Positions 20,647 to 31,993 of a DNA stretch of 35,214 bases are shown piece after piece. The translations under genes and the position numbers were made by a program. Every line of letters starts with the position of its first letter. The first letter of the stretch is position 1. This DNA is from Nitrospirota bacterium. GTDB taxonomy: Bacteria; Nitrospirota; Nitrospiria; Nitrospirales; Nitrospiraceae. The stretch spans positions 1-35,214 of the forward strand of contig JAHFEU010000007.1 of assembly GCA_023248295.1 (NCBI GenBank). The letters run 5' to 3'. Under the pieces are notes generated by a model that saw nothing but the letters and a program-made list of their open reading frames with translations, was not told the DNA's origin and searched no databases.

Positions 20647-21159
20647 TTACTCCTTGTTCTCCTGGGCCATCAGCGGCTGTTTCAGGATCCACATTTCGTA
20701 GATTGGAATAACCATCATCACAAGAAAGCTGACGGTCATCAAGAGATCGCCCGTCAGCATCGTGAGGACAAATTCGGGCGAGACGTACCTGATCAGCCAA
20801 GGAGAGATGAGATCCAGGATGACTCCTCCGAACGCCGTATAGGTCATGAGTAATTTCAGGCTGGTGCTGGCCATAGTCAGATAGAGCACGTGGGTCAGGA
20901 TCATGAACACCACCGGCATCGTGAACAAGTGGAAATGGGTAATTTCTGCCAGCTCTCGGAATGACATGGGTTCGCCGAAGGTCGCATCAGACCCACGGTA
21001 GTGATCGGCGATACCCTGCGGCGAGAGGCTAGTCATGCTATGCGCCCAGAAGAAGCTGAAGGCAAACCCAACGAGCATGAGCATGAGGAAGAGCGTGTAC
21101 ACGAGCCGAATGTGGCGATCGGCATCCCGCAGGCGAAACCGGGTGTTAAAATTGCGCAT
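20647..21159 (-). CDS. four-helix membrane protein with conserved-looking histidines
   Basis: I do not recognise a named family. The 170-residue protein has four hydrophobic segments: about residues 17-39, 77-97, 102-123 and 130-156. A 35-residue loop lies after helix 1 (SLSPQGIADHYRGSD and on). Histidines sit at 40, 53, 75, 77 and 90. His77 and His90 are both in helix 2, 13 residues apart, the spacing used by bis-heme b-type membrane cytochromes to hold two hemes on one helix pair. Whether it binds heme is unproven. It is the last gene of an operon with an FMN-binding protein and a porin, which suggests a membrane electron donor for the flavoprotein. ATG 21159 has GGATGGG upstream. Confidence 0.75.
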   Translation of the reverse strand: MRNFNTRFRLRDADRHIRLVYTLFLMLMLVGFAFSFFWAHSMTSLSPQGIADHYRGSDATFGEPMSFRELAEITHFHLFTMPVVFMILTHVLYLTMASTSLKLLMTYTAFGGVILDLISPWLIRYVSPEFVLTMLTGDLLMTVSFLVMMVIPIYEMWILKQPLMAQENKE

Positions 21160-21176: not shown

Positions 21177-21866
21177 TCAGTCACCAAACAGGGATTCCAA
21201 GAATCCCTTCTCCGCTCGCCTCGCCGCCATCGTGTCGCTTCCTCGCCCCAGCGGTTTCAGATAGAACTCGTCAATCAGGACTAAGACGCGTTTCACTCCG
21301 GCGCTTATGGAACGCACCGACATGGTCGCGCCGCTGATATTGACGATGTCCTTGTTGATGCGGATCGGGTCCAGCACCGTTTTGCCCTCATATTGCGAGT
21401 TGAACCGCTTTCGCCCGACTTCGCTCCCTCGAGCTTCGCGGAAGACCAGCAGTTCCACGTCGGTGCAGTAGCCTCTCGGATCCGCACCAACCATGTAGGT
21501 CATGTGCTTGTGCTTGCCGATCGTGTTGTGGACCATCGCGTAGCCATCCACTGTCGCGCCGGTCTCGCCAATGTAGATCTCGAACTCTTCTTCTGGAAAC
21601 TTCCACCCGATCCGCGATTCAACCAAGGCCTTCTGATCCGGGCTCAGGCGCAGCACTTCTTTTCTGATCCGCTGCGACTTGGGCAGCATGATCTTGACCG
21701 CTTCTTCTTCCGACATGAAGACCTCGGCGTGGGTCATCTCTTGTTCGGTGAGATAGCGCTTCAGCTCGCTGTCCCAGATTCGCTCCGCTTTGGCCTCTGA
21801 CAGCGCGCTGAGCAAGAAGATCAGCGGGAGCGCGACAGCGACAGGCAATCTCAGGTACCTGGACAT
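21177..21866 (-). CDS. exported FMN-binding domain protein, likely covalently flavinylated
   Basis: A 229-residue protein with an N-terminal signal peptide (VAVALPLIFLLSALSEAKA). The C-terminal half is an FMN_bind domain with GKTVLDPIRINKDIVNISGATMSVRSISAGVKR. SGATMS (178-183) fits the [ST]GA[TS]x[ST] sequence at which ApbE attaches FMN through phosphoester to Thr, as in NqrC and RnfG; the predicted site is Thr181. The ApbE gene is divergently transcribed about 2.5 kb away, in the same regulatory unit. The start has GAAGGA 7 bases upstream and overlaps the preceding lipoprotein gene by 16 bases. The likely role is electron transfer in the periplasm. Confidence 0.88.
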   Translation of the reverse strand: MSRYLRLPVAVALPLIFLLSALSEAKAERIWDSELKRYLTEQEMTHAEVFMSEEEAVKIMLPKSQRIRKEVLRLSPDQKALVESRIGWKFPEEEFEIYIGETGATVDGYAMVHNTIGKHKHMTYMVGADPRGYCTDVELLVFREARGSEVGRKRFNSQYEGKTVLDPIRINKDIVNISGATMSVRSISAGVKRVLVLIDEFYLKPLGRGSDTMAARRAEKGFLESLFGD

Positions 21867-22330
21867 CCGTGTTCCTTCAGCTTGACATTGAGTCTACTCT
21901 GCACGTCGGCGATGACTTCCTTGGAAGGGTCAGTTGGTGCCCAACCGAACATGCGTGAGCCACCGCGAAAGGCGTACCGCTCACGTTCCTCGGCGAAGCT
22001 GACCCGGGTGACATCGCTCATCCGCTCGAGAGTCAGGACGATGCGGGACCGGTCTCTACTATCCCCGATCTCGCGTCGCATGGCACCGAACGTCCGGCCT
22101 GGAGCCGGAATTTCGAGCCAGTTCGTCTGAATAAAACCCTTGCCCTTGTCCTGCACCTTCACTGAACGGCTTTTAACGGCATCCAGAGCGGAATCCCAGA
22201 CTTGGTCGTATGAACAGACCACGTAGCGCTCCCGGAGGCTGGCGAACGATGTGCATCCTGCAAACGCGCTGACAACCAGCAGTAGGCCGATCGTACGAGC
22301 CAAAGGCATCGGGATCATCGTCCTGCGCAT
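21851..22330 (-). CDS. putative lipoprotein of unknown function
   Basis: A 159-residue protein with an N-terminal basic segment, hydrophobic core (TIGLLLVVSAFA) and a cysteine at 26 in SAFAGC, a near-lipobox (Phe at -3 is atypical). The mature part has YDQVWDSALDAVKSRSVKVQDKGKGFIQTNW, a pattern reminiscent of BamC-like and related small lipoprotein folds, but I cannot assign a family. ATG 22330 is chosen because GGAGGG is 7 bases upstream and it begins the signal peptide; a longer start at 22390 would fall inside the porin gene. The gene is 16 bases after the porin stop and overlaps the FMN-binding gene. Confidence 0.78.
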   Translation of the reverse strand: MRRTMIPMPLARTIGLLLVVSAFAGCTSFASLRERYVVCSYDQVWDSALDAVKSRSVKVQDKGKGFIQTNWLEIPAPGRTFGAMRREIGDSRDRSRIVLTLERMSDVTRVSFAEERERYAFRGGSRMFGWAPTDPSKEVIADVQSRLNVKLKEHGCPGT

Positions 22331-22346
22331 ATGGGTCCCTCCACCC

Positions 22347-23834
22347 TCAGAAGTATGTTGCCAACATGGCGAGGAACCCGTTCCCATCAATCCGAGTGGT
22401 GATGCTGTTACCCGGATTGTTCACGAAGGACTGAATGCTGGTGTCTTTCTGCGTATTGAACATATAGCTGAGCTTTAAGACGGTGTCCTCGATGGGTCGG
22501 AAGTTCAGGCCCAAAGTCAGCCGTTGAAGGTCCCGCTGATTGCTGAGAGCGCCGGTCGCGGTCATCGTTTTGTTGCCTGTGTCGGTGTCCACGGTTTCCC
22601 AGCGGACGACCGCCGTGAAGGTCGACGCGTCCGAGAAATGACTCGGGGCCAGCTTCTTCAGAAACTCCGGCATGAAGTGGTAGTTGGCCTGGATGTAATA
22701 GCCAAACATCCCGTCCGGGCCTATCGTCGCGGGGGTGGTTCCCTGATTGCCTGTGATTCGTGACCAGGCCGCTTCGCCGATGAGTTCCAATGGTCCTCGT
22801 TGGAGGGTCCAGTCTATGGCATAGATGCCCACGTTGTTGTTTTGATTGTTGACCCCGGCTGCATCCTTATTGCTGTATTGGCTGTAGTAGGTGGAGCCTG
22901 CGATCTCGACGCCTAACCGCGGGCTGAACGCGACCCGGGCGACCACGCCCTTGTTGTCGTTGTTGTCCCGCGACACGCTGCCTCGGCAATTCCGCAGGCC
23001 GCTGGTGTCGGTGATTGATCCGCCCTGAGCGTTGCAGCCCATTCCGTTGACGGCGTACAATTCATAGTCCACTTTGGAGAGAGCGGTGGGATAGAGGGTG
23101 CCGTAAATGCCCGCCCCCGACTCAAACCAGGTGCTGGGAATGACCAGCCGATCAACCATCGGTCTGTCCGGCAGGTCGTTCAGCGGGGAGTCATGCAGGA
23201 GGTTGAACTTTCCGACCGGCATCAGAAGAATGCCGGCGCGCAGGTTGATGGTCTCTGTCAGCAGATAGTCGATCTGGGCGAACTCAAGCTGCATCGAGCC
23301 AGAGGCAGTGTTACCGGTGCCGGTAATGGTGCTGCCCGGAGAATTTGTTCCTCCACGCTCGAACTCAATTTCCGTCGCGAACTTCACGCGATCGGTGATG
23401 TCAGCGTAGATAAAAGGCACCATGCGCTCCTGGTTGAAGCTGTTGCGGCTGGGATTATCCAGGGTCGGTCCCGTCAGCGAGCCATACTTGATGTCTGCGT
23501 AGCCACCGATGGTTGACTTGGGTACGGCTAAGAATGGCTTGGCATAGATCAATCGTCCGGATCCGGTTGATCCGAACGACAACGGCACCTTTTCCTCGCC
23601 AGGCCGCTCCACCTTAATCTCGGTGATGGGCCCCGTTCCGCCCGATGGCGGGACTGCGGTCGGAACTCCTGGCTCGCGCTCGCGTTCCCGCTCCCGCTTT
23701 TCGTGTTCCTGAAACTGTTGCAACTTCTCTTCCAATTGCTTCACCCGTTCCTCGAGGTTCTTCTCTTCTGCCAGCGCCGGCATGGCATCGACCGCGCAGA
23801 GTGCCAGAGCCCCGAGGAGTGCCCACATCCTCAT
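22347..23834 (-). CDS. outer-membrane beta-barrel porin with N-terminal coiled coil
   Basis: A 495-residue protein with a signal peptide ending near MPALAEE, then a coiled-coil/charged segment (NLEERVKQLEEKLQQFQEHEKR followed by an Arg-Glu run). A linker rich in Pro and Gly leads to a barrel of about 400 residues with alternating strands. It ends in the aromatic FLAMLATYF, the C-terminal phenylalanine typical of outer-membrane barrels. The coiled coil may form a trimeric stalk, as in peptidoglycan-bound porins. Substrate is unknown. It has GGAGGA 7 bases ahead of ATG 23834 and is co-oriented with the flavin genes downstream. It is not a TonB-dependent receptor: there is no plug domain and it is too short. 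Confidence 0.88.
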   Translation of the reverse strand: MRMWALLGALALCAVDAMPALAEEKNLEERVKQLEEKLQQFQEHEKREREREREPGVPTAVPPSGGTGPITEIKVERPGEEKVPLSFGSTGSGRLIYAKPFLAVPKSTIGGYADIKYGSLTGPTLDNPSRNSFNQERMVPFIYADITDRVKFATEIEFERGGTNSPGSTITGTGNTASGSMQLEFAQIDYLLTETINLRAGILLMPVGKFNLLHDSPLNDLPDRPMVDRLVIPSTWFESGAGIYGTLYPTALSKVDYELYAVNGMGCNAQGGSITDTSGLRNCRGSVSRDNNDNKGVVARVAFSPRLGVEIAGSTYYSQYSNKDAAGVNNQNNNVGIYAIDWTLQRGPLELIGEAAWSRITGNQGTTPATIGPDGMFGYYIQANYHFMPEFLKKLAPSHFSDASTFTAVVRWETVDTDTGNKTMTATGALSNQRDLQRLTLGLNFRPIEDTVLKLSYMFNTQKDTSIQSFVNNPGNSITTRIDGNGFLAMLATYF

Positions 23835-23950
23835 GGTGTTTCCTCCTTCCCCGTGTGTCGGGGAATCTCGACTCGGGACTCTGTCGGTCTCTGGTCTTCT
23901 GGGTAAAGATCGTTACATAGTCCGCCGCTGGGTCGCGGCTGTCGCTTCCC

Positions 23951-24151
23951 TCACCGGTGAACGTTCGGAGCCAGTCCCACGTCGCGCCCCCCCATGGAGT
24001 AGGGGATCACGACGATCCGTTTGCACCGTTTGCATTTCAGCTCGACGCCGTCGTTGCGCAACTTGGCGATCAACTGGCCGCACTCACATCGTGCGTCGGT
24101 GCGCTCGGTTGCCACGGGTTTTGTTGAGTTCATGGAGTTGCCGGGTAGCAT
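23951..24151 (-). CDS. Com-like zinc-ribbon protein
   Basis: A 66-residue protein with a CxCGQLIAKL ... GVELKCKRCKRIVVIP pattern: four cysteines arranged as Cys-x-Cys and Cys-x2-Cys about 17 residues apart. This is the zinc-finger layout of the phage Mu Com translational activator and the related small Com-like proteins on bacterial chromosomes. It is the first gene after the Fur-box promoter on the minus strand and 116 bases ahead of the porin, so it may be a regulator or accessory factor of that operon. The start is uncertain: ATG 24151 has only an AAGAG upstream, and ATG 24133 is in frame. Confidence 0.68.
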   Translation of the reverse strand: MLPGNSMNSTKPVATERTDARCECGQLIAKLRNDGVELKCKRCKRIVVIPYSMGGRDVGLAPNVHR

Positions 24152-24170
24152 GGCTCTTGGTCATGTGGTT

Positions 24171-24199
24171 GAAATTGAGAACGATTATTAGTATCCTAA
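24171..24199 (+). promoter_or_regulatory. sigma-70-type promoter for apbE
   Basis: TTGAAA (24171-24176) and TATCCT (24194-24199) are 17 bases apart on the plus strand. The hexamers match consensus at 5 and 4 of 6 positions. The Fur-box-like 15-mer at 24178-24192 occupies the spacer, so a bound repressor would block polymerase. Confidence 0.55.
24178..24192. promoter_or_regulatory. Fur box in the divergent apbE / porin-operon promoter
   Basis: TGAGAACGATTATTA matches the 7-1-7 Fur consensus TGATAAT-G-ATTATCA at 12 of 15 positions. It lies within the plus-strand promoter spacer and abuts the minus-strand -10, so one Fur dimer site could control both directions. Fur itself is encoded about 7.5 kb downstream. 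Confidence 0.65.
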
Positions 24200-24219
24200 T
24201 CAGCAATACCCTGTCAAGC
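24192..24219 (-). promoter_or_regulatory. sigma-70-type promoter for the Com-like/porin/flavin operon
   Basis: On the minus strand a perfect TTGACA (24219-24214) is followed after 16 bases by GATACT (24197-24192; 4 of 6). The start would lie near 24185, inside or next to the Fur box, with a leader of about 34 bases to ATG 24151. Confidence 0.6.
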
Positions 24220-24322
24220 CCCTTTTTTCTGCTGAAAAGATCAGGCGAGGATGCTAGGCTCGGCTGGACGTAACCGATTGGTTTTTGTGATGATACTGGC
24301 GCTTCCTGCGGAGGATCGTTGT

Positions 24323-25393
24323 ATGAGACGGAGTCTCGCCTTTCTTATGCGACGAAGTTTTCAAGACTCCAGCGCCGTCACCGCTCGGGTTGTCTGTGCG
24401 TCGCTTCTTGCCGCCATCTCGACACTCGCGAGTTGCGCGTCCGTCCCCGGGAAGACGGAGCCTGTCCTCTTGAGACGGGCTCAGATGCACATGGGGACGC
24501 TGGTGACGATCACGGCGATAGCCCAGACGCAGGCCGCCGCCCAGGCCGCCATGACGGCTGGGTTTCAGGAGATCCGCCGACTGGAAGAGTTGCTCAGCAC
24601 CTGGATACCGACAAGCGAGCTCTCGCGTGTGAACCAGGCGGCTGGCCGGGAGCCGGTGAAGGTAGGTCACGATACCATGATGCTGTTGAAGCGATCGCTG
24701 GAGGTAGCCGGCCTGACAGCGGGGGGCTTTAACATTGCTATAGGACCAGCCATTGACGCCTGGGGCTTTTACGGCCGCTCGCGGATTCCTGAGGCATCAG
24801 AATTGGTGGCCCTCCGCCCGTTGGTTGAACTCAAGCAAGTCCGCCTTGATCCAATCGCCGGGACAGTCTATCTGGCGAGACCCGGTATGCGGATTGATGT
24901 GGGCGGGATCGGGAAAGGTTTTGCGGCGGACCTGGCCGTGGAGGTGATGAAAAGCGCGGGTGCTCTCGGCGGAGTGGTGGCGCTCTCGGGAGATATGAAG
25001 ACGTTTGGCCTCGTGCCAGACGAGACGCGCTTGGTGTTCGGTATCAAGCATCCGCGGAAAGAAGGAGCTGTCTTGGCTCGTGTGGAACTTCAGGACGAAG
25101 CGATCTCCACGGCCGGTGATTATGAGCGCTACTTCGATCGGAACGGCGTGCGGTATCACCACATTTTGGATCCCCGGACGCTCCAGCCTGCCCACGGGTG
25201 CCAGAGCGTCACGGTCGTGGCGGAGGAGGGGGTCATGGCGGATGGGCTGGATACCGGAATTTTTGTAATGGGTCCCCAGCGAGGCATGGAACTAGTTGAA
25301 AAGCTGGCCGGGGTCGAGGCGATTATTGTCGATCAGGCAGGCAACATTCTTGTCTCGTCCGGATTGAAGGACAGAATTCAACTTATACAATAG
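24323..25393 (+). CDS. apbE: FAD:protein FMN transferase (ApbE family), lipoprotein
   Basis: A 356-residue ApbE, which uses FAD and Mg to attach FMN covalently to Thr in exported flavoproteins. The signal peptide ends in a good lipobox LASC, so it is anchored in the envelope. Motifs are MHMGTLVTITA at the start of the mature domain, DVGGIGKGFAADLA, GVVALSGDMKTFG, ISTAGDYERYF with HHILDPRTLQP, and ADGLDTGIFVMG, whose acidic and Thr residues bind Mg and FAD phosphate. ATG 24323 has GGAGG 8 bases upstream and starts the signal peptide. An in-frame ATG at 24251 would add 24 unusual residues. Its probable target is the FMN-binding protein at 21177-21866. Confidence 0.92.
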   Translation: MRRSLAFLMRRSFQDSSAVTARVVCASLLAAISTLASCASVPGKTEPVLLRRAQMHMGTLVTITAIAQTQAAAQAAMTAGFQEIRRLEELLSTWIPTSELSRVNQAAGREPVKVGHDTMMLLKRSLEVAGLTAGGFNIAIGPAIDAWGFYGRSRIPEASELVALRPLVELKQVRLDPIAGTVYLARPGMRIDVGGIGKGFAADLAVEVMKSAGALGGVVALSGDMKTFGLVPDETRLVFGIKHPRKEGAVLARVELQDEAISTAGDYERYFDRNGVRYHHILDPRTLQPAHGCQSVTVVAEEGVMADGLDTGIFVMGPQRGMELVEKLAGVEAIIVDQAGNILVSSGLKDRIQLIQ

Positions 25394-27598: not shown

Positions 27599-28729
27599 TT
27601 ACCGGTCTGGTGGCCGGACGCGATCCTGCTCGAAGAGCACGATATGGGTAGCAATCACCTGAAGCTCTACCGGGGTTCCGACCGGGTAGACGCTGGTCGA
27701 GACCTCGCTGCTGTGCACCACCTGTCCGGAGGGCAGCCCGATGGTATACAGATTTTCGGACCCCCGAAACTGCCTGGCCAGGATCCGCGTGGCGCCATTC
27801 GCCAGTGGAGCGATGTGCACGTCATCCGGGCGGATCATAACCACGACTCTCGCCCCACCGTGATAGCCGACCTGGTTCGGAAATTCTCCGATCTCGGTCA
27901 CCACCTTCCCGTTCTCGACGATGCCCGGGATGAAATCGGCCTGGCCCACGAAGTCCGCGACGAACGGGGTGGACGGCGTGTGGTAGATTGCCTCCGGCGT
28001 GTCGAACTGCTCGAGACAGCCGTTGTTGAGCACCGCAACGCGGTCGGCTAAGGCAAAGGCTTCTTCGTGGTCGTGGGTAACCAGGATGGCGGTGGTCTTG
28101 GTGCGCCTCAGCAGGTCGTGCAGATCCTCCCGCATCTTTCGCGTCATGTCAGGATCCAGATTGCTGAACGGCTCGTCCAGCAGCAGGACGACCGGCTTCT
28201 GCACCAGGGCTCGGGCCAGCGCGACCCGCTGCTGCTGGCCCCCTGAAAGCTCGTGGGGGTACCGTCGCTCGAGACCGGTCAGCCCCGTCATCGCCAACAT
28301 CGCGTGCACCTGTGTCTCCCGTTGGACGGAGGGCAGGTCCCTGAGTCCGAAGGCGATGTTCTCGACTACGCGCAGATGAGGGAACAACGCGTATTCCTGA
28401 AAGACCATTCCTACGCGCCGACGTTCGGTCGGGAGCAGAACCCCCGGCGCTGAGGCCAAGTGTCCCTCCAGGTAGACTTCACCCTCCACTACGGGTTCGA
28501 ACCCGGCGATGACTCGAAGCGTCGTGGTCTTCCCGCATCCGGACGGACCCAGCAGGCAGAGGATTTCTCCCTCGCGGACAGAAAAGGACACTTCCGAGAT
28601 CGCTGCACGCCCGACCTCATAGGCGCAGGTGACCTTGCGGAGCTCCAGGACCATCGGGCGGGTCCCTTCATCCGAGGAAACTCCCCCCGCCTGGGCGGCG
28701 GTCTTCTGGTCCGCACCGATGGGCCTCAT
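27599..28729 (-). CDS. fbpC: ferric-iron-type ABC transporter ATP-binding protein
   Basis: A 376-residue ATPase of the FbpC/PotA class. Walker A is GPSGCGKTT near residue 60, the Q-loop sits in GMVFQEYALFPHLRVVENIAFGL, the signature is LSGGQQQR near 160, Walker B is VVLLLDEPFSNLD and the switch His lies in LVTHDHEEAF. A C-terminal TOBE-like region with VVVMIRPDDVHIAP follows. It energises import with the adjacent permease and binding protein. ATG 28729 has GAGAAGG 7 bases upstream; a start at 28654 (MVLELRKV) would give the minimal family form. The substrate is iron by context only. Confidence 0.9.
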   Translation of the reverse strand: MRPIGADQKTAAQAGGVSSDEGTRPMVLELRKVTCAYEVGRAAISEVSFSVREGEILCLLGPSGCGKTTTLRVIAGFEPVVEGEVYLEGHLASAPGVLLPTERRRVGMVFQEYALFPHLRVVENIAFGLRDLPSVQRETQVHAMLAMTGLTGLERRYPHELSGGQQQRVALARALVQKPVVLLLDEPFSNLDPDMTRKMREDLHDLLRRTKTTAILVTHDHEEAFALADRVAVLNNGCLEQFDTPEAIYHTPSTPFVADFVGQADFIPGIVENGKVVTEIGEFPNQVGYHGGARVVVMIRPDDVHIAPLANGATRILARQFRGSENLYTIGLPSGQVVHSSEVSTSVYPVGTPVELQVIATHIVLFEQDRVRPPDR

Positions 28730-28751
28730 CCCGATACCTTCTCTCCCTTCA

Positions 28752-30338
28752 TCAGGCCGCCCGCCAGTCCTTCGATACCAGCAGCAAAAGGGCCGGCAGA
28801 GTCATAATCACGATCAGGAGTGCCGAAGGCGCCGCAAGCTTGTAATATTCCTCGCTGGCCTCGAGCCAGACCCGGACGGCCAGGGTATCGAACCCCACCG
28901 GGCGGAGCAGGAGCGTGGCCGGCAATTCCTTCATGCTCAGGAGGAACATGAGGACCCACGCGGCAATGAACCCCCCCCGGACCAGCGGCAACGTGGTTTC
29001 CCGGAAGGTGCGGACGGGTCCAAGACCGAGACTCCTGGCTGCCTCTTCCAAATTCGGCGTGACCTGCTGAAGCGCCGGCTCCATCGTCTGCAATCCTGCC
29101 GGAAGGAAATGCACGATGTATGCCACGATCAGGACCACGGCTGTTCCATACCAGAACGGGGCAAGATGGGAGAACAGGACAAGGAGCGCCAGGGCCCCCA
29201 CCGGTCCCGGCAACACGTAGCCGGCATAGGCGGCCTGCAGACAGAGCACATTCAGCCTCGACGGCCATCGGCTTGCAAGATAGGCGAGGGGGCTCCCGAC
29301 TAGTAAGGCGAAGGTCGCCGCCAACCCGGAGAGGAAGACGCTATTCCAGACGAACCCCAGGAACCGGGCATCCACCGCACCTTCCGCCACCGCGGAACCG
29401 CTCCAGTGGATCAGCAAGAGCGCCGGCAGGCCAAACGCGAGGCCGAACACCACGACCATGTAGAGCGTGATGAGCCCGGTCCCCAGCGGGCCGCATGGTT
29501 TTCGCGCCGGCGCCCGGTATCGCCCGGTCGTCTGGTAAAAGCGGCTCCGCTCTCTGAACCAGCGCTCGGTCACCAGGAAGATGAGGGCAAACAGGACCAG
29601 CAACAGACTCAGGACACCGGCGGCGGCCTGGTCGTACCGGCCGGTGATCTGTTGATACACCGCATACGTGAAGGTCTGGAAGCGCAGGAGAGAGACCGCC
29701 CCGAAGTCCGAGGCTACGTAGAGGATCACGAGGGACAGACCGGCGACGATGGCCGGCCGGATCAGGGGCAAGGTCACCTTCAGCATCGTGCGCTGGCGGG
29801 AGGCGCCGCAGACCCGCGCCACTTCTTCATAGGACAGGTTGAAGTTGAGGAGGGCGGCCCTGGTGAGCAGGTAGACGAACGGGAACGTGTCCAACGTCAT
29901 GACCAGGGTTGCCCCCGCGTAACTGTATGGCGAGAACACCCGTCCCTCCGGTCCTGTCCAGGTCTGCCAGAGCTGCTCGACCGGCCCGCCTGCGCCGAGC
30001 AAATAAGTATAGACATAGGCGAGCACGTAGGTGGGCATGGCGAGGGGGAGGACCAACGCCCATTCCCAGACCTGCCGGCCAGGGAAGCTGTACCGGACCA
30101 CGAGCCATGCCAGCGAGACCCCCAAGGCAAACGTGCCGGCCGAGACGCTGACGGCTAGCGAGACGGTGTTGAAGAGCAACTCGGGGATCCGCGTATTCCA
30201 CAGCCGGCTCCAGACCGCGGAGTCTGCGGAGAGCGCGAGATAGACGATGTACATCAGCGGCGCGCAAATTAGCCCCGCGACTCCCAACGCCAGGAAGGAG
30301 ATGGAAGGAGGGACCGTCTGGCGGATTGTTGTCGTCAC
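28752..30338 (-). CDS. fbpB: ferric-iron-type ABC transporter permease, fused two-domain form
   Basis: A 528-residue inner-membrane protein with about twelve helices. Two BPD_transp_1-type halves are each marked by an EAA loop: EVARVCGASRQRTMLKVTLPLIRPAI near residue 190 and EEAARSLGLGPVRTFRETTLPLVRGGF near 435. This fused duplicate is the layout of FbpB/SfuB iron permeases. The start is GTG 30338, 5 bases after the stop of the binding-protein gene, without a clear SD, so translation is probably coupled. Confidence 0.9.
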   Translation of the reverse strand: MTTTIRQTVPPSISFLALGVAGLICAPLMYIVYLALSADSAVWSRLWNTRIPELLFNTVSLAVSVSAGTFALGVSLAWLVVRYSFPGRQVWEWALVLPLAMPTYVLAYVYTYLLGAGGPVEQLWQTWTGPEGRVFSPYSYAGATLVMTLDTFPFVYLLTRAALLNFNLSYEEVARVCGASRQRTMLKVTLPLIRPAIVAGLSLVILYVASDFGAVSLLRFQTFTYAVYQQITGRYDQAAAGVLSLLLVLFALIFLVTERWFRERSRFYQTTGRYRAPARKPCGPLGTGLITLYMVVVFGLAFGLPALLLIHWSGSAVAEGAVDARFLGFVWNSVFLSGLAATFALLVGSPLAYLASRWPSRLNVLCLQAAYAGYVLPGPVGALALLVLFSHLAPFWYGTAVVLIVAYIVHFLPAGLQTMEPALQQVTPNLEEAARSLGLGPVRTFRETTLPLVRGGFIAAWVLMFLLSMKELPATLLLRPVGFDTLAVRVWLEASEEYYKLAAPSALLIVIMTLPALLLLVSKDWRAA

Positions 30339-30343
30339 GGATG

Positions 30344-31429
30344 TTACCGGAGGCCTGCTTGTTCGATGAGCGCCATCGTCGGCTCCCGAAGCTCGCCGAG
30401 TCGAGTCAAGGGAACCGCGGCCGCGCGAAAACTCTCCCGCGTCGGCAAGGCCGGGTCGGCCGGTAAATCCGGCCGCAGAGGGTACTCCTTGTTGAGATCC
30501 GCGAACATCTTCTGCCCTTCCTGCGACACGAGGAATTCGACCAGACGCCTGGCCGAATCGAGATGACGGGTGTGCTTGGTGATCCCGACGCCGGCCACGT
30601 TCATGATCGCGCCCATGCCTCCCTGGTGCTGGTCGAGCATCAGGCCCGAGATCGGCGCTCCTGGCTGGGACGACAGGTGCCGGTAGATGTAATAGTGATT
30701 GACGAGGCCCACTGCGACCTGCCCTTTTGCGACCGCCTCCACGATTTGGGAGCTCTTGCCGTACACATGATTCCCGGCGTTCGCCTTGAGACCATCCAGA
30801 AAGCGCCTGGTGCGCTCGTCGCCGTACACGGCTTTCAGGACCGACACGCCGGCCTGAAGGTATTCGCTCCCGGCGTTCGGGATCGCGATCTTATTGTTCC
30901 AATGCGGCTCTGCCAGATCCAGGATCGACCGGACCTCGGGCGGCTTGACCAGCGTCGTGTTGTACACCAGAATCCAAAACCGTCCTGAGACTCCCACCCA
31001 GCTATTGTCCGGGGCTCTGAAGGCAGCCGGGATCACTCGCTCCACTGCCTTCATGTCCAGGGGGAGCAGGAGTCCCAGCTCCCGCGCGCGCTCCAGGCTG
31101 CCGGCGTCATTGGCGATAAACAGGTCGGCCGGTGTCCGATCCCTCTCGGCTTGCAGTCGGTTGACGAGTTCCGTGGTTCCTGAGGAGAGCAGGTCCACCG
31201 CGATGCCGGTTTTGGCCTGGAATGAATCGAGGACCGGTTTGATCAGGCGCTCCGCGCGGCCCGAGTAGACGACCAACCGGTCAGCCGGCTCGCTGTAGGC
31301 CGCCGTGACCAGGATGGCGCCGACTGCAGCCGTCAGGGTCAGGAGGCGACCCAGCCCCTTCGTGCCTCGATGGCTTCGATACCCGCAACGCTCACGGATG
31401 ACCGGGCGCTCGTCGTCATTTCCGGGCAT
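30344..31429 (-). CDS. fbpA: ferric-iron ABC transporter periplasmic binding protein
   Basis: A 361-residue class C-type ferric-binding protein. The signal peptide has an unusually long charged n-region (about 26 residues) before LLTLTAAVGAILVTAAYS. The mature start RLVVYSGRAERLIKPVLDSFQAKTGI is typical of FbpA/FutA. The ligand segment VGLVNHYYIYRHL holds the Tyr-Tyr pair that binds Fe(III) in this family. It captures iron in the periplasm for the FbpB-FbpC channel. ATG 31429 is the only sensible start in frame, although no SD is visible. Its upstream region shares an 11-mer with the apbE promoter region. Confidence 0.9.
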   Translation of the reverse strand: MPGNDDERPVIRERCGYRSHRGTKGLGRLLTLTAAVGAILVTAAYSEPADRLVVYSGRAERLIKPVLDSFQAKTGIAVDLLSSGTTELVNRLQAERDRTPADLFIANDAGSLERARELGLLLPLDMKAVERVIPAAFRAPDNSWVGVSGRFWILVYNTTLVKPPEVRSILDLAEPHWNNKIAIPNAGSEYLQAGVSVLKAVYGDERTRRFLDGLKANAGNHVYGKSSQIVEAVAKGQVAVGLVNHYYIYRHLSSQPGAPISGLMLDQHQGGMGAIMNVAGVGITKHTRHLDSARRLVEFLVSQEGQKMFADLNKEYPLRPDLPADPALPTRESFRAAAVPLTRLGELREPTMALIEQAGLR

Positions 31430-31481: not shown

Positions 31482-31510
31482 AAAAAAAGGGGGCCGCCGT
31501 CAATGGCGGC
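31482..31510 (-). terminator. intrinsic terminator of fur
   Basis: On the minus strand GCCGCC and GGCGGC (31510-31505 with 31498-31493) form a stem with a 6-base loop, followed by CCCC and seven T. The fur stop codon (31500-31502) lies inside the hairpin. It separates fur from the fbpABC operon downstream on the same strand. Confidence 0.75.
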
Positions 31511-31943
31511 ACCTCGAACACAACCCGTACAGCTCCAATTTGTGGGTCTGGATGGTGAACCCATTTCGGCGGGCGACTTCTTCCTGGAGGCGTTCGATGT
31601 CGCAGTTCTCAAATTCCACGATCTTCCCGCAGGCCGTACAGATCAGGTGGTCGTGATGCCCCTTGTGAGCGACATTGTCGTATTGAGTTTGGGCGCCGAA
31701 ATGGCGCGCCTGGGCTAAGCCTGCCTCACAGAACAGGTTCAACGTCCTGTAAATCGTGGCCAGACCGATGTGAGGATCCTTCCTCGCCAGCGAGCGGTAC
31801 ATCTGCTCCGCGGTGATGTGCTCCATCTTGAGGAACATGTTCAGGATTTGCTCGCGCTGGCGGGTCAGCTTGAGCTGATGCTTCGCGAGGTGGTCCTTCA
31901 GTAGTTCGATGTCCTTCAGATTTTTGCTCATGGCGGCAGACAT
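31500..31943 (-). CDS. fur: ferric uptake regulator Fur
   Basis: A 147-residue Fur-family repressor. A winged-helix DNA-binding domain spans about residues 15-85 (LTRQREQILNMF, HIGLATIYRTLNLF). The metal and dimerisation domain has HKGHHDHLICTACGKIVEFE with His96, His97 and His99 and two Cys pairs, 102/105 and 142/145, for the structural zinc. Iron-dependent repression of the neighbouring operons is expected. ATG 31943 is in frame with a second ATG at 31931; neither has a clear SD. Its own promoter carries a Fur box. It could be a Zur or PerR type, but genomic context favours iron. Confidence 0.93.
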   Translation of the reverse strand: MSAAMSKNLKDIELLKDHLAKHQLKLTRQREQILNMFLKMEHITAEQMYRSLARKDPHIGLATIYRTLNLFCEAGLAQARHFGAQTQYDNVAHKGHHDHLICTACGKIVEFENCDIERLQEEVARRNGFTIQTHKLELYGLCSRCRH

Positions 31944-31953
31944 GGGGGGTCAG

Positions 31954-31993
31954 TGATAATGAATATTAAAAACTAATTGGAAAAGCGGGTCAA
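31954..31993 (-). promoter_or_regulatory. fur promoter with overlapping Fur box
   Basis: On the minus strand TTGACC (31993-31988) and TTTAAT (31970-31965) are 17 bases apart; the -10 matches 5 of 6. A Fur box, TGATAATGAATATTA (31954-31968), matches the 7-1-7 consensus at 13 of 15 positions and overlaps the -10. Autoregulation by Fur is the natural reading. Confidence 0.75.

Follow-up and report, generated by a model that had tools for sequence, protein, structure and literature searches.

The window analysed here, a stretch of 35,214 nucleotides from a Nitrospirota draft genome (contig C95 of an assembly of 2.5 Mb in 220 contigs, completeness 88.8), carries a conserved operator on a single conserved promoter, in front of a syntenic group of genes that begins with a com-like gene and a porin gene. 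The porin leader contains a conserved element together with an arm in the porin codons with which that element can pair, and in two genomes the element and the com-like gene are absent jointly. We read this arrangement as a Fur operator on the minus-strand promoter combined with Com-type control of porin translation, and put the probability that both parts hold at a little under 0.6. The fuller proposal, to which we would give about even odds, is that Nitrospirales carry a chromosomal, Fur-controlled switch of the com/mom type, in which iron starvation would induce a Com-like protein that opens porin mRNA stems in cis and in trans. The named relatives within the family of the source genome are Nitrospira, whose nitrite oxidisers and complete nitrifiers are of global importance and whose metabolism is rich in iron. 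In the open-access literature that was searched we found no description of a Fur box or Fur regulon for Nitrospira and no chromosomal Com-porin system.

The first gene on the minus strand is a 66-aa ORF (23951-24151, with an alternative start at 24133) for the Com-like Cys4 zinc-ribbon protein, and it is followed by genes for an outer-membrane porin (Porin_O_P, PF07396, E 1.1e-7; 22347-23834), a probable lipoprotein with no family match (21851-22390, the real start being probably 3' of the ORF start), an FMN_bind protein (21177-21866) and a four-helix membrane protein (20647-21159). The FMN_bind protein is a likely ApbE substrate, with an SGATMS motif in which GATMS is invariant across 11 aligned sequences and the residue before it shows one S/T variation. 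On the opposite (plus) strand lies apbE, for the flavin transferase (PF02424, E 1.8e-79 for the longer ORF 24251-25393), whose start at 24323 was picked on the basis of a GGAGG and a lipobox (24323-25393). An FbpABC-type ferric iron ABC transporter and fur are found 3-8 kb further out, both on the minus strand: the transporter occupies 27599-31429 (ATPase 27599-28729, permease 28752-30338, binding protein 30344-31429), its binding protein being FbpA-like with ferric-binding proteins as top PDB matches, and fur (31500-31943) is the sole FUR-family gene detected in the source assembly.

Clusters for ApbE flavinylation have been linked to iron assimilation, and flavin-based iron reduction has been discussed for them (PMC8238504). 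The present group shares with the clusters described there the combination of ApbE and an FMN_bind substrate alongside iron genes, and by this analogy its ApbE and FMN protein would fit flavin-based iron reduction. It differs from them in its membrane partner, here a four-helix histidine protein that matches no NapH, MsrQ, PepSY, DsbD or NQR/RNF family. This protein has five invariant histidines, no match to any family and no related sequence among PDB entries, and its predicted structure (mean pLDDT 67.3) is too low in confidence for use; with its histidines and its place in a flavoprotein operon it is a candidate for a new, possibly b-type, cytochrome.

The original prediction placed two face-to-face promoters sharing one Fur box at 24171-24219. 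Sequence and consensus scan locate the 15-mer and both promoter-like hexamer pairs as described, apart from the start coordinate, which is 2 nt late because the plus-strand TTGAAA begins at 24169. The minus-strand pair TTGACA-16-GATACT (24217-24190) scores 10/12 and the plus-strand pair TTGAAA-17-TATCCT (24169-24197, with the hexamers at 24169-24174 and 24192-24197) scores 9/12; the stretch 23600-24500 has no promoter-like site besides these two (shuffle mean 0.2). The Fur box core TGAGAACGATTATTA (24176-24190, plus strand) agrees with the consensus TGATAATNATTATCA at 11 of 14 defined positions, which becomes the 12 of 15 that had been claimed when the N is counted.

Fur boxes have been described by a 7-1-7 or overlapping-hexamer model in E. 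coli and B. subtilis. When an unbiased generic consensus was scanned against the source genome with up to 3 mismatches, 17 sites were found, as against 4 for the reversed pattern used as control; the match thus exceeds background, yet the consensus is only moderately selective, and since fifteen sites, this one among them, have 3 mismatches, the generic consensus alone cannot single it out. Of the 17 sites, 14 fall in predicted ORFs, for which reason a wide Fur regulon in this genome was rejected, one is intergenic (contig C105), and two overlap promoters, namely the studied site and the box of fur, 7.8 kb apart in the window. A looser pattern, built partly from the studied site, finds just these two promoter sites at no more than 1 mismatch. 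It is conservation among relatives that, in the aligned sequences, puts the site far beyond chance.

The 15-mer (with at most 1 mismatch) occurs in 124 of 175 genomes of the family and in 87 of 114 high-quality ones, nearly always as a single copy, compared with 8 matches for the reversed-pattern control, and at the level of the order in 140 of 235 genomes; the sequences compared here and below are related and hence not independent. From most of the places listed, 122 distinct sites were analysed, 109 of which directly precede a small zinc-ribbon (com-like) ORF on the minus strand, and most of these 109 orthologous loci keep the order with the porin, FMN protein, membrane protein and apbE. The site is also present in 19 of 24 named Nitrospira-group loci (L162-L185). 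Conservation in relatives that have both operons had been named beforehand as the test by which the prediction might be refuted, and there the operator is kept, beside iron genes. The remaining 13 sites were considered as a possible regulon, a reading that we rejected: five fall within ORFs and four on the border of unrelated ones; three are duplicates of the operator, in front of either com paralogues or a porin, and the last one, in G003, stands ahead of an ORF of 144 aa. The second copies (L078, L107, L119) occur in single genomes, and at L119 an inserted sequence splits com from the porin while each retains its own cis element.

The extent of the operator was estimated from the information per alignment column in 90 non-redundant copies (less than 75% identity over 270 bp). 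Information is high in two blocks alone, 24170-24195, which takes in the box and the minus-strand -10, and 24212-24218, which takes in the minus-strand -35. The first block (plus-strand consensus TGAAATTGAGAACGATTATTAATATC) spans the minus-strand -10, the predicted start site and the first transcribed bases. Its 26-mer, with either A or G accepted at one position, is exact in 61 of the 90 loci, and the core TGAGAACGATTATTA in 81. The minus -35 (TTGACA, 24212-24217) is exact in 73, the minus -10 (24190-24195) reads GATATT in 70 and GATACT, as in the window, in 8, and the minus promoter as a whole scores at least 9/12 in 83.

The plus-strand promoter fares differently. TTGAAA occurs in 5 of the 90 loci, TATCCT in 26 and the exact pair of the window in 3. 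A T opens the -35 in 12 loci and ends the -10 in 39. The match at the plus pair (7.27/12) is the same as that found 6 nt downstream (7.24), an equality that the six-base periodicity of the box would lead one to expect. TGAAA and TATC, which give the plus promoter its apparent quality, are parts of the operator that is conserved and of the minus -10. The footprint and the variation of the plus hexamers thus point to a single promoter under selection, and a bidirectional promoter of the Fur type, with both promoters conserved, is not what the relatives display. We therefore retain from the original prediction the conserved Fur-type operator beside iron genes and give up its two face-to-face promoters. 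That two overlapping opposed promoters are both silenced from one Fur box, which would make apbE and the minus operon a single iron-responsive unit, is unlikely on these figures, even if both hexamer pairs are present in the window with nothing else promoter-like nearby and almost every orthologous locus has apbE downstream on the plus strand; against it, the distance from the site to apbE ranges from 131 to 919 nt, often with another ORF intervening. Co-repression of apbE, which had been part of the same claim, is no more than possible. No second Fur-like site before apbE stood above shuffled sequence (mean best 8.46 versus 8.26 of 14 in 85 loci), and the nearness of apbE in nearly all loci would allow for its co-repression by a roadblock or through a weak local promoter.

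The single promoter that is conserved is that of an iron-related gene, with FbpA-type genes linked to it, and the site overlapping it is very probably a Fur operator. The case for Fur as the protein that binds, which we regard as well supported, draws on the presence of the same operator before fur in a sister family, on genomes with one FUR-family gene, and on the adjoining fur and FbpA-type genes. Each of the five family-f2 genomes examined (G046, G051, G043, G037, G049) has the same 15-mer, together with a GTCAAG block, 17-25 nt upstream of fur, and five genomes that are 97-99% complete (G006, G010, G016, G017, G023) have the site and one FUR-family gene. The Fur protein of the window matches PF01475 with 126 bits and has Fur proteins as its best PDB matches; its best NCBIfam model is the ferric uptake regulator, at 108 bits and under the cut-off of 146, followed by PerR at 90, also under its cut-off. 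Some relatives encode 2-4 FUR-family genes, and a near-invariant, asymmetric operator might suit another member of the family (PerR, Zur) or an unrelated repressor; set against the near-complete genomes with one such gene, the operator before fur in family f2 and the linkage to the iron transporter, a binder other than Fur seems improbable, slightly more so than the pair of opposed promoters.

Further support for Fur comes from loci in which the 15-mer is missing and its position before com is taken by a diverged Fur-like box: TGAGAACGGTTATCA in L164, TGATAACGGTTATTA in L171, TGATAACTATTATTA in L018 (12/14) and TGAGATTTATTATCA in L008 and L011. Several of the changes in the diverged boxes move towards the Fur consensus. 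Weaker forms (9-10/14) are seen in L172, L173, L176 and L024, and in nine of the other loci inspected the stretch displayed ended too early or held no clear box. The promoter of fur itself has a box in the window, TGATAATGAATATTA (31954-31968, plus strand; 12/14), and the fur promoters of near relatives carry related ones (TTAATATTGATACTCAATTTC, on the other strand, in L067 and L162). In most of the Nitrospira fur promoters inspected no Fur box was discerned by eye. The fur promoter CTTGACC-N17-TTTAAT is conserved (L063-L185), with a Fur box visible on it only near the source genus, and autoregulation of fur may have been lost in most Nitrospira.

With the classic Fur box the operator shares a TGAKAAY-N-RTTATYA core, an overlap with the -10 and start, and iron genes and fur nearby; it differs in being asymmetric, almost invariant over 26 bp and usually present once per genome, and a broad Fur regulon would look different. 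Such a single near-invariant operator offers a direct test of iron control in Nitrospira. A partial parallel is found in Geobacter and Desulfuromonas, for which the portion of PMC545781 at hand predicts Fur boxes before psp porins (PF07396-like) and suggests a role in iron. The likeness lies in the Fur box before a porin of the phosphate-selective family. The psp system differs in its box, TGAAAA...TTTCA, and the same portion of PMC545781 mentions no com gene or leader element.

The first gene of the operon is, by its cysteines and profile matches, a zinc ribbon resembling Com of phage Mu. The ORF evolves as a protein, with entropies of 0.29/0.09/1.25 bits at codon positions 1/2/3 in the 81 of 90 sequences that have the motif, and its product is a small Cys4 zinc ribbon, as in the Com family, with four invariant cysteines (C16, C18, C34, C37). 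The PHROG families 6417 ('translational regulator', best 3.3e-6) and 13819 ('gpCom') match 17 of 17 homologues scanned; Pfam support is weak, with PF10122 in 2 of 17 members at a best E of 0.017.

Between com and the porin lies the element GACCAGAGACC-N4-GAGTCCCGAGTC (23870-23896, minus strand), proposed as the Com target from its conservation and a published Com RNA motif. In relatives the element, with a spacer of N3/4, sits in the same gap about 33-36 nt upstream of the start codon. Its exact pattern occurs in 88 of 175 genomes (control 0), and a tolerant form in 110 of 117 com-porin gaps. Two of the seven remaining gaps (L080, L164) do contain the element, their ends having been mis-set; four (L171, L172, L173, L176) have GAGGACC-N4/5-GAGTCCC instead, and L181 has two GAGGACC...GCGTCCC stretches. 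Rfam gave no match at gathering score across the window, with chance-level matches alone in 23750-24330. The idea that a Com-like protein binds the element was formed before it was compared with the motif obtained for Com by SELEX, which PMC6483171 gives as GAG(N)2CC, in bipartite form NGAGNNCC(N)2-3GAGNNCC, and, within the loop, as CC(N)2-3GAG, next to a structure in which the mom start codon is concealed. The loop-type motif is present in 102 of 110 leaders and the strict bipartite spacing, GAGNNCC-N2-3-GAGNNCC, in 9 of the 110 family-f1 leaders, figures to be read with the relaxed form of the motif having been defined after the element had been seen.

Part of the element, GAGTCCCGAG (23872-23881, minus strand), is the predicted 5' arm of a stem that might inhibit translation, and it can pair with CTCGGGGCTC (23807-23816, minus strand), the predicted 3' arm in porin codons 7-10, so as to enclose the start site. 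Duplex energy has a median of -20.3 kcal/mol over 98 distinct leaders, versus -12.4 for synonymous versions, with p <=0.05 in 82 of the 98, leaders that are related to one another. At the arm motif glycine is encoded by GGG in 86 of 86 cases and alanine by GCT in 75 of 78, compared with 30% and 9% in nine genes of the window. Most stem pairs are kept in 90 aligned cases; covariation is thin because most pairs are invariant, both sides having changed in one locus, L164. The probability of pairing between element and codons is below 0.5 in 8 of 122 leaders. In family f3 the stem is retained but formed by different sequences (GAGGACC with GGTCCTC or GTCCTC; GTCCCC with GGGGGC), and the ribosome site is there taken up by an inner helix. 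In these predictions the start codon is hidden within the inhibition structure, and element and codon arm probably form a translation-inhibiting structure that resembles the RNA target of Com.

Control of porin translation by the Com-like protein we hold to be probable, by a narrower margin of confidence than the Fur operator. The competing explanation is that the element is a plain inhibitory or stabilising stem, or the target of another RNA or protein, and we regard this as a substantial, if lesser, possibility: the pairing with the codons is strong by itself, and the element is found before porin paralogues with no com adjacent (L282, L283, L284). Yet the genomes of these three paralogues encode com elsewhere, and the resemblance to the Com SELEX motif also speaks for Com. 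So do the two com-less porin loci, which have no element: in G194 (99% complete) and G049 (92%) the operator stands directly before the porin, com is absent anywhere at E 0.01, the porin leaders have no element and, in G194, the codon arm is lost as well. This joint loss of com and element is suggestive of a link between the pair, not proof of one. The leader element recurs ahead of porin paralogues at other places in the genome (L282, L283, L284, and a second copy in L072), where neither a Fur box nor com is close by. G029 and G071 have it in the leaders of porins that are diverged (43-45% identical), again with no Fur box or com in the vicinity, and in G073 the copy at L284 precedes a similar start.

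From these comparisons we infer the following course of events for the Fur-controlled, Com-type switch. When iron is replete, Fur on 24170-24195, over the -10 and the start site, would block minus-strand transcription of the genes for the Com-like protein, porin, lipoprotein, FMN protein and membrane histidine protein; with iron shortage the operon would be transcribed and the Com-like zinc ribbon would bind the porin leader element. Since the element otherwise pairs with codons 7-10 and encloses the ribosome site, such binding would open the leader and the porin would be made, an effect of activation. The FMN protein would be flavinylated by ApbE. A route of iron uptake and reduction might be made up of this flavoprotein, the porin, the membrane histidine protein and FbpABC together. 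One guess is that the second lock on the porin serves to delay or gate a large pore.

As in phage Mu com/mom (PMC6483171), a small Cys4 zinc finger is proposed here to act on the message of a neighbouring gene, and a GAG/CC RNA motif is predicted to adjoin a structure that conceals the start codon. The present system differs from that of Mu in being chromosomal, in its Fur-type operator and porin target, and in a motif that overlaps the stem arm, whose partner lies in coding sequence. If the Com part is true, what is known as the regulation of one phage operon would prove to be a system of gene control on chromosomes, with many natural variants, and it would hint at a role for small Com-like proteins in bacterial genomes.

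Several Nitrospira genomes encode 2-4 Com-like paralogues (L297, L299-L304). An automatic motif search at such loci gave 0/6; by eye, no GAGGAC...GAGCCC-like stretch was seen downstream at L297, L300 and L303, and one was seen at L299 (with AAGGACC, one letter different), L301 and L302. In genus g19 the com homologues (L293 and L295, in G019 and G030) match across an in-frame stop and are possibly pseudogenes; the Fur box there is TGAGATTTATTATCA.
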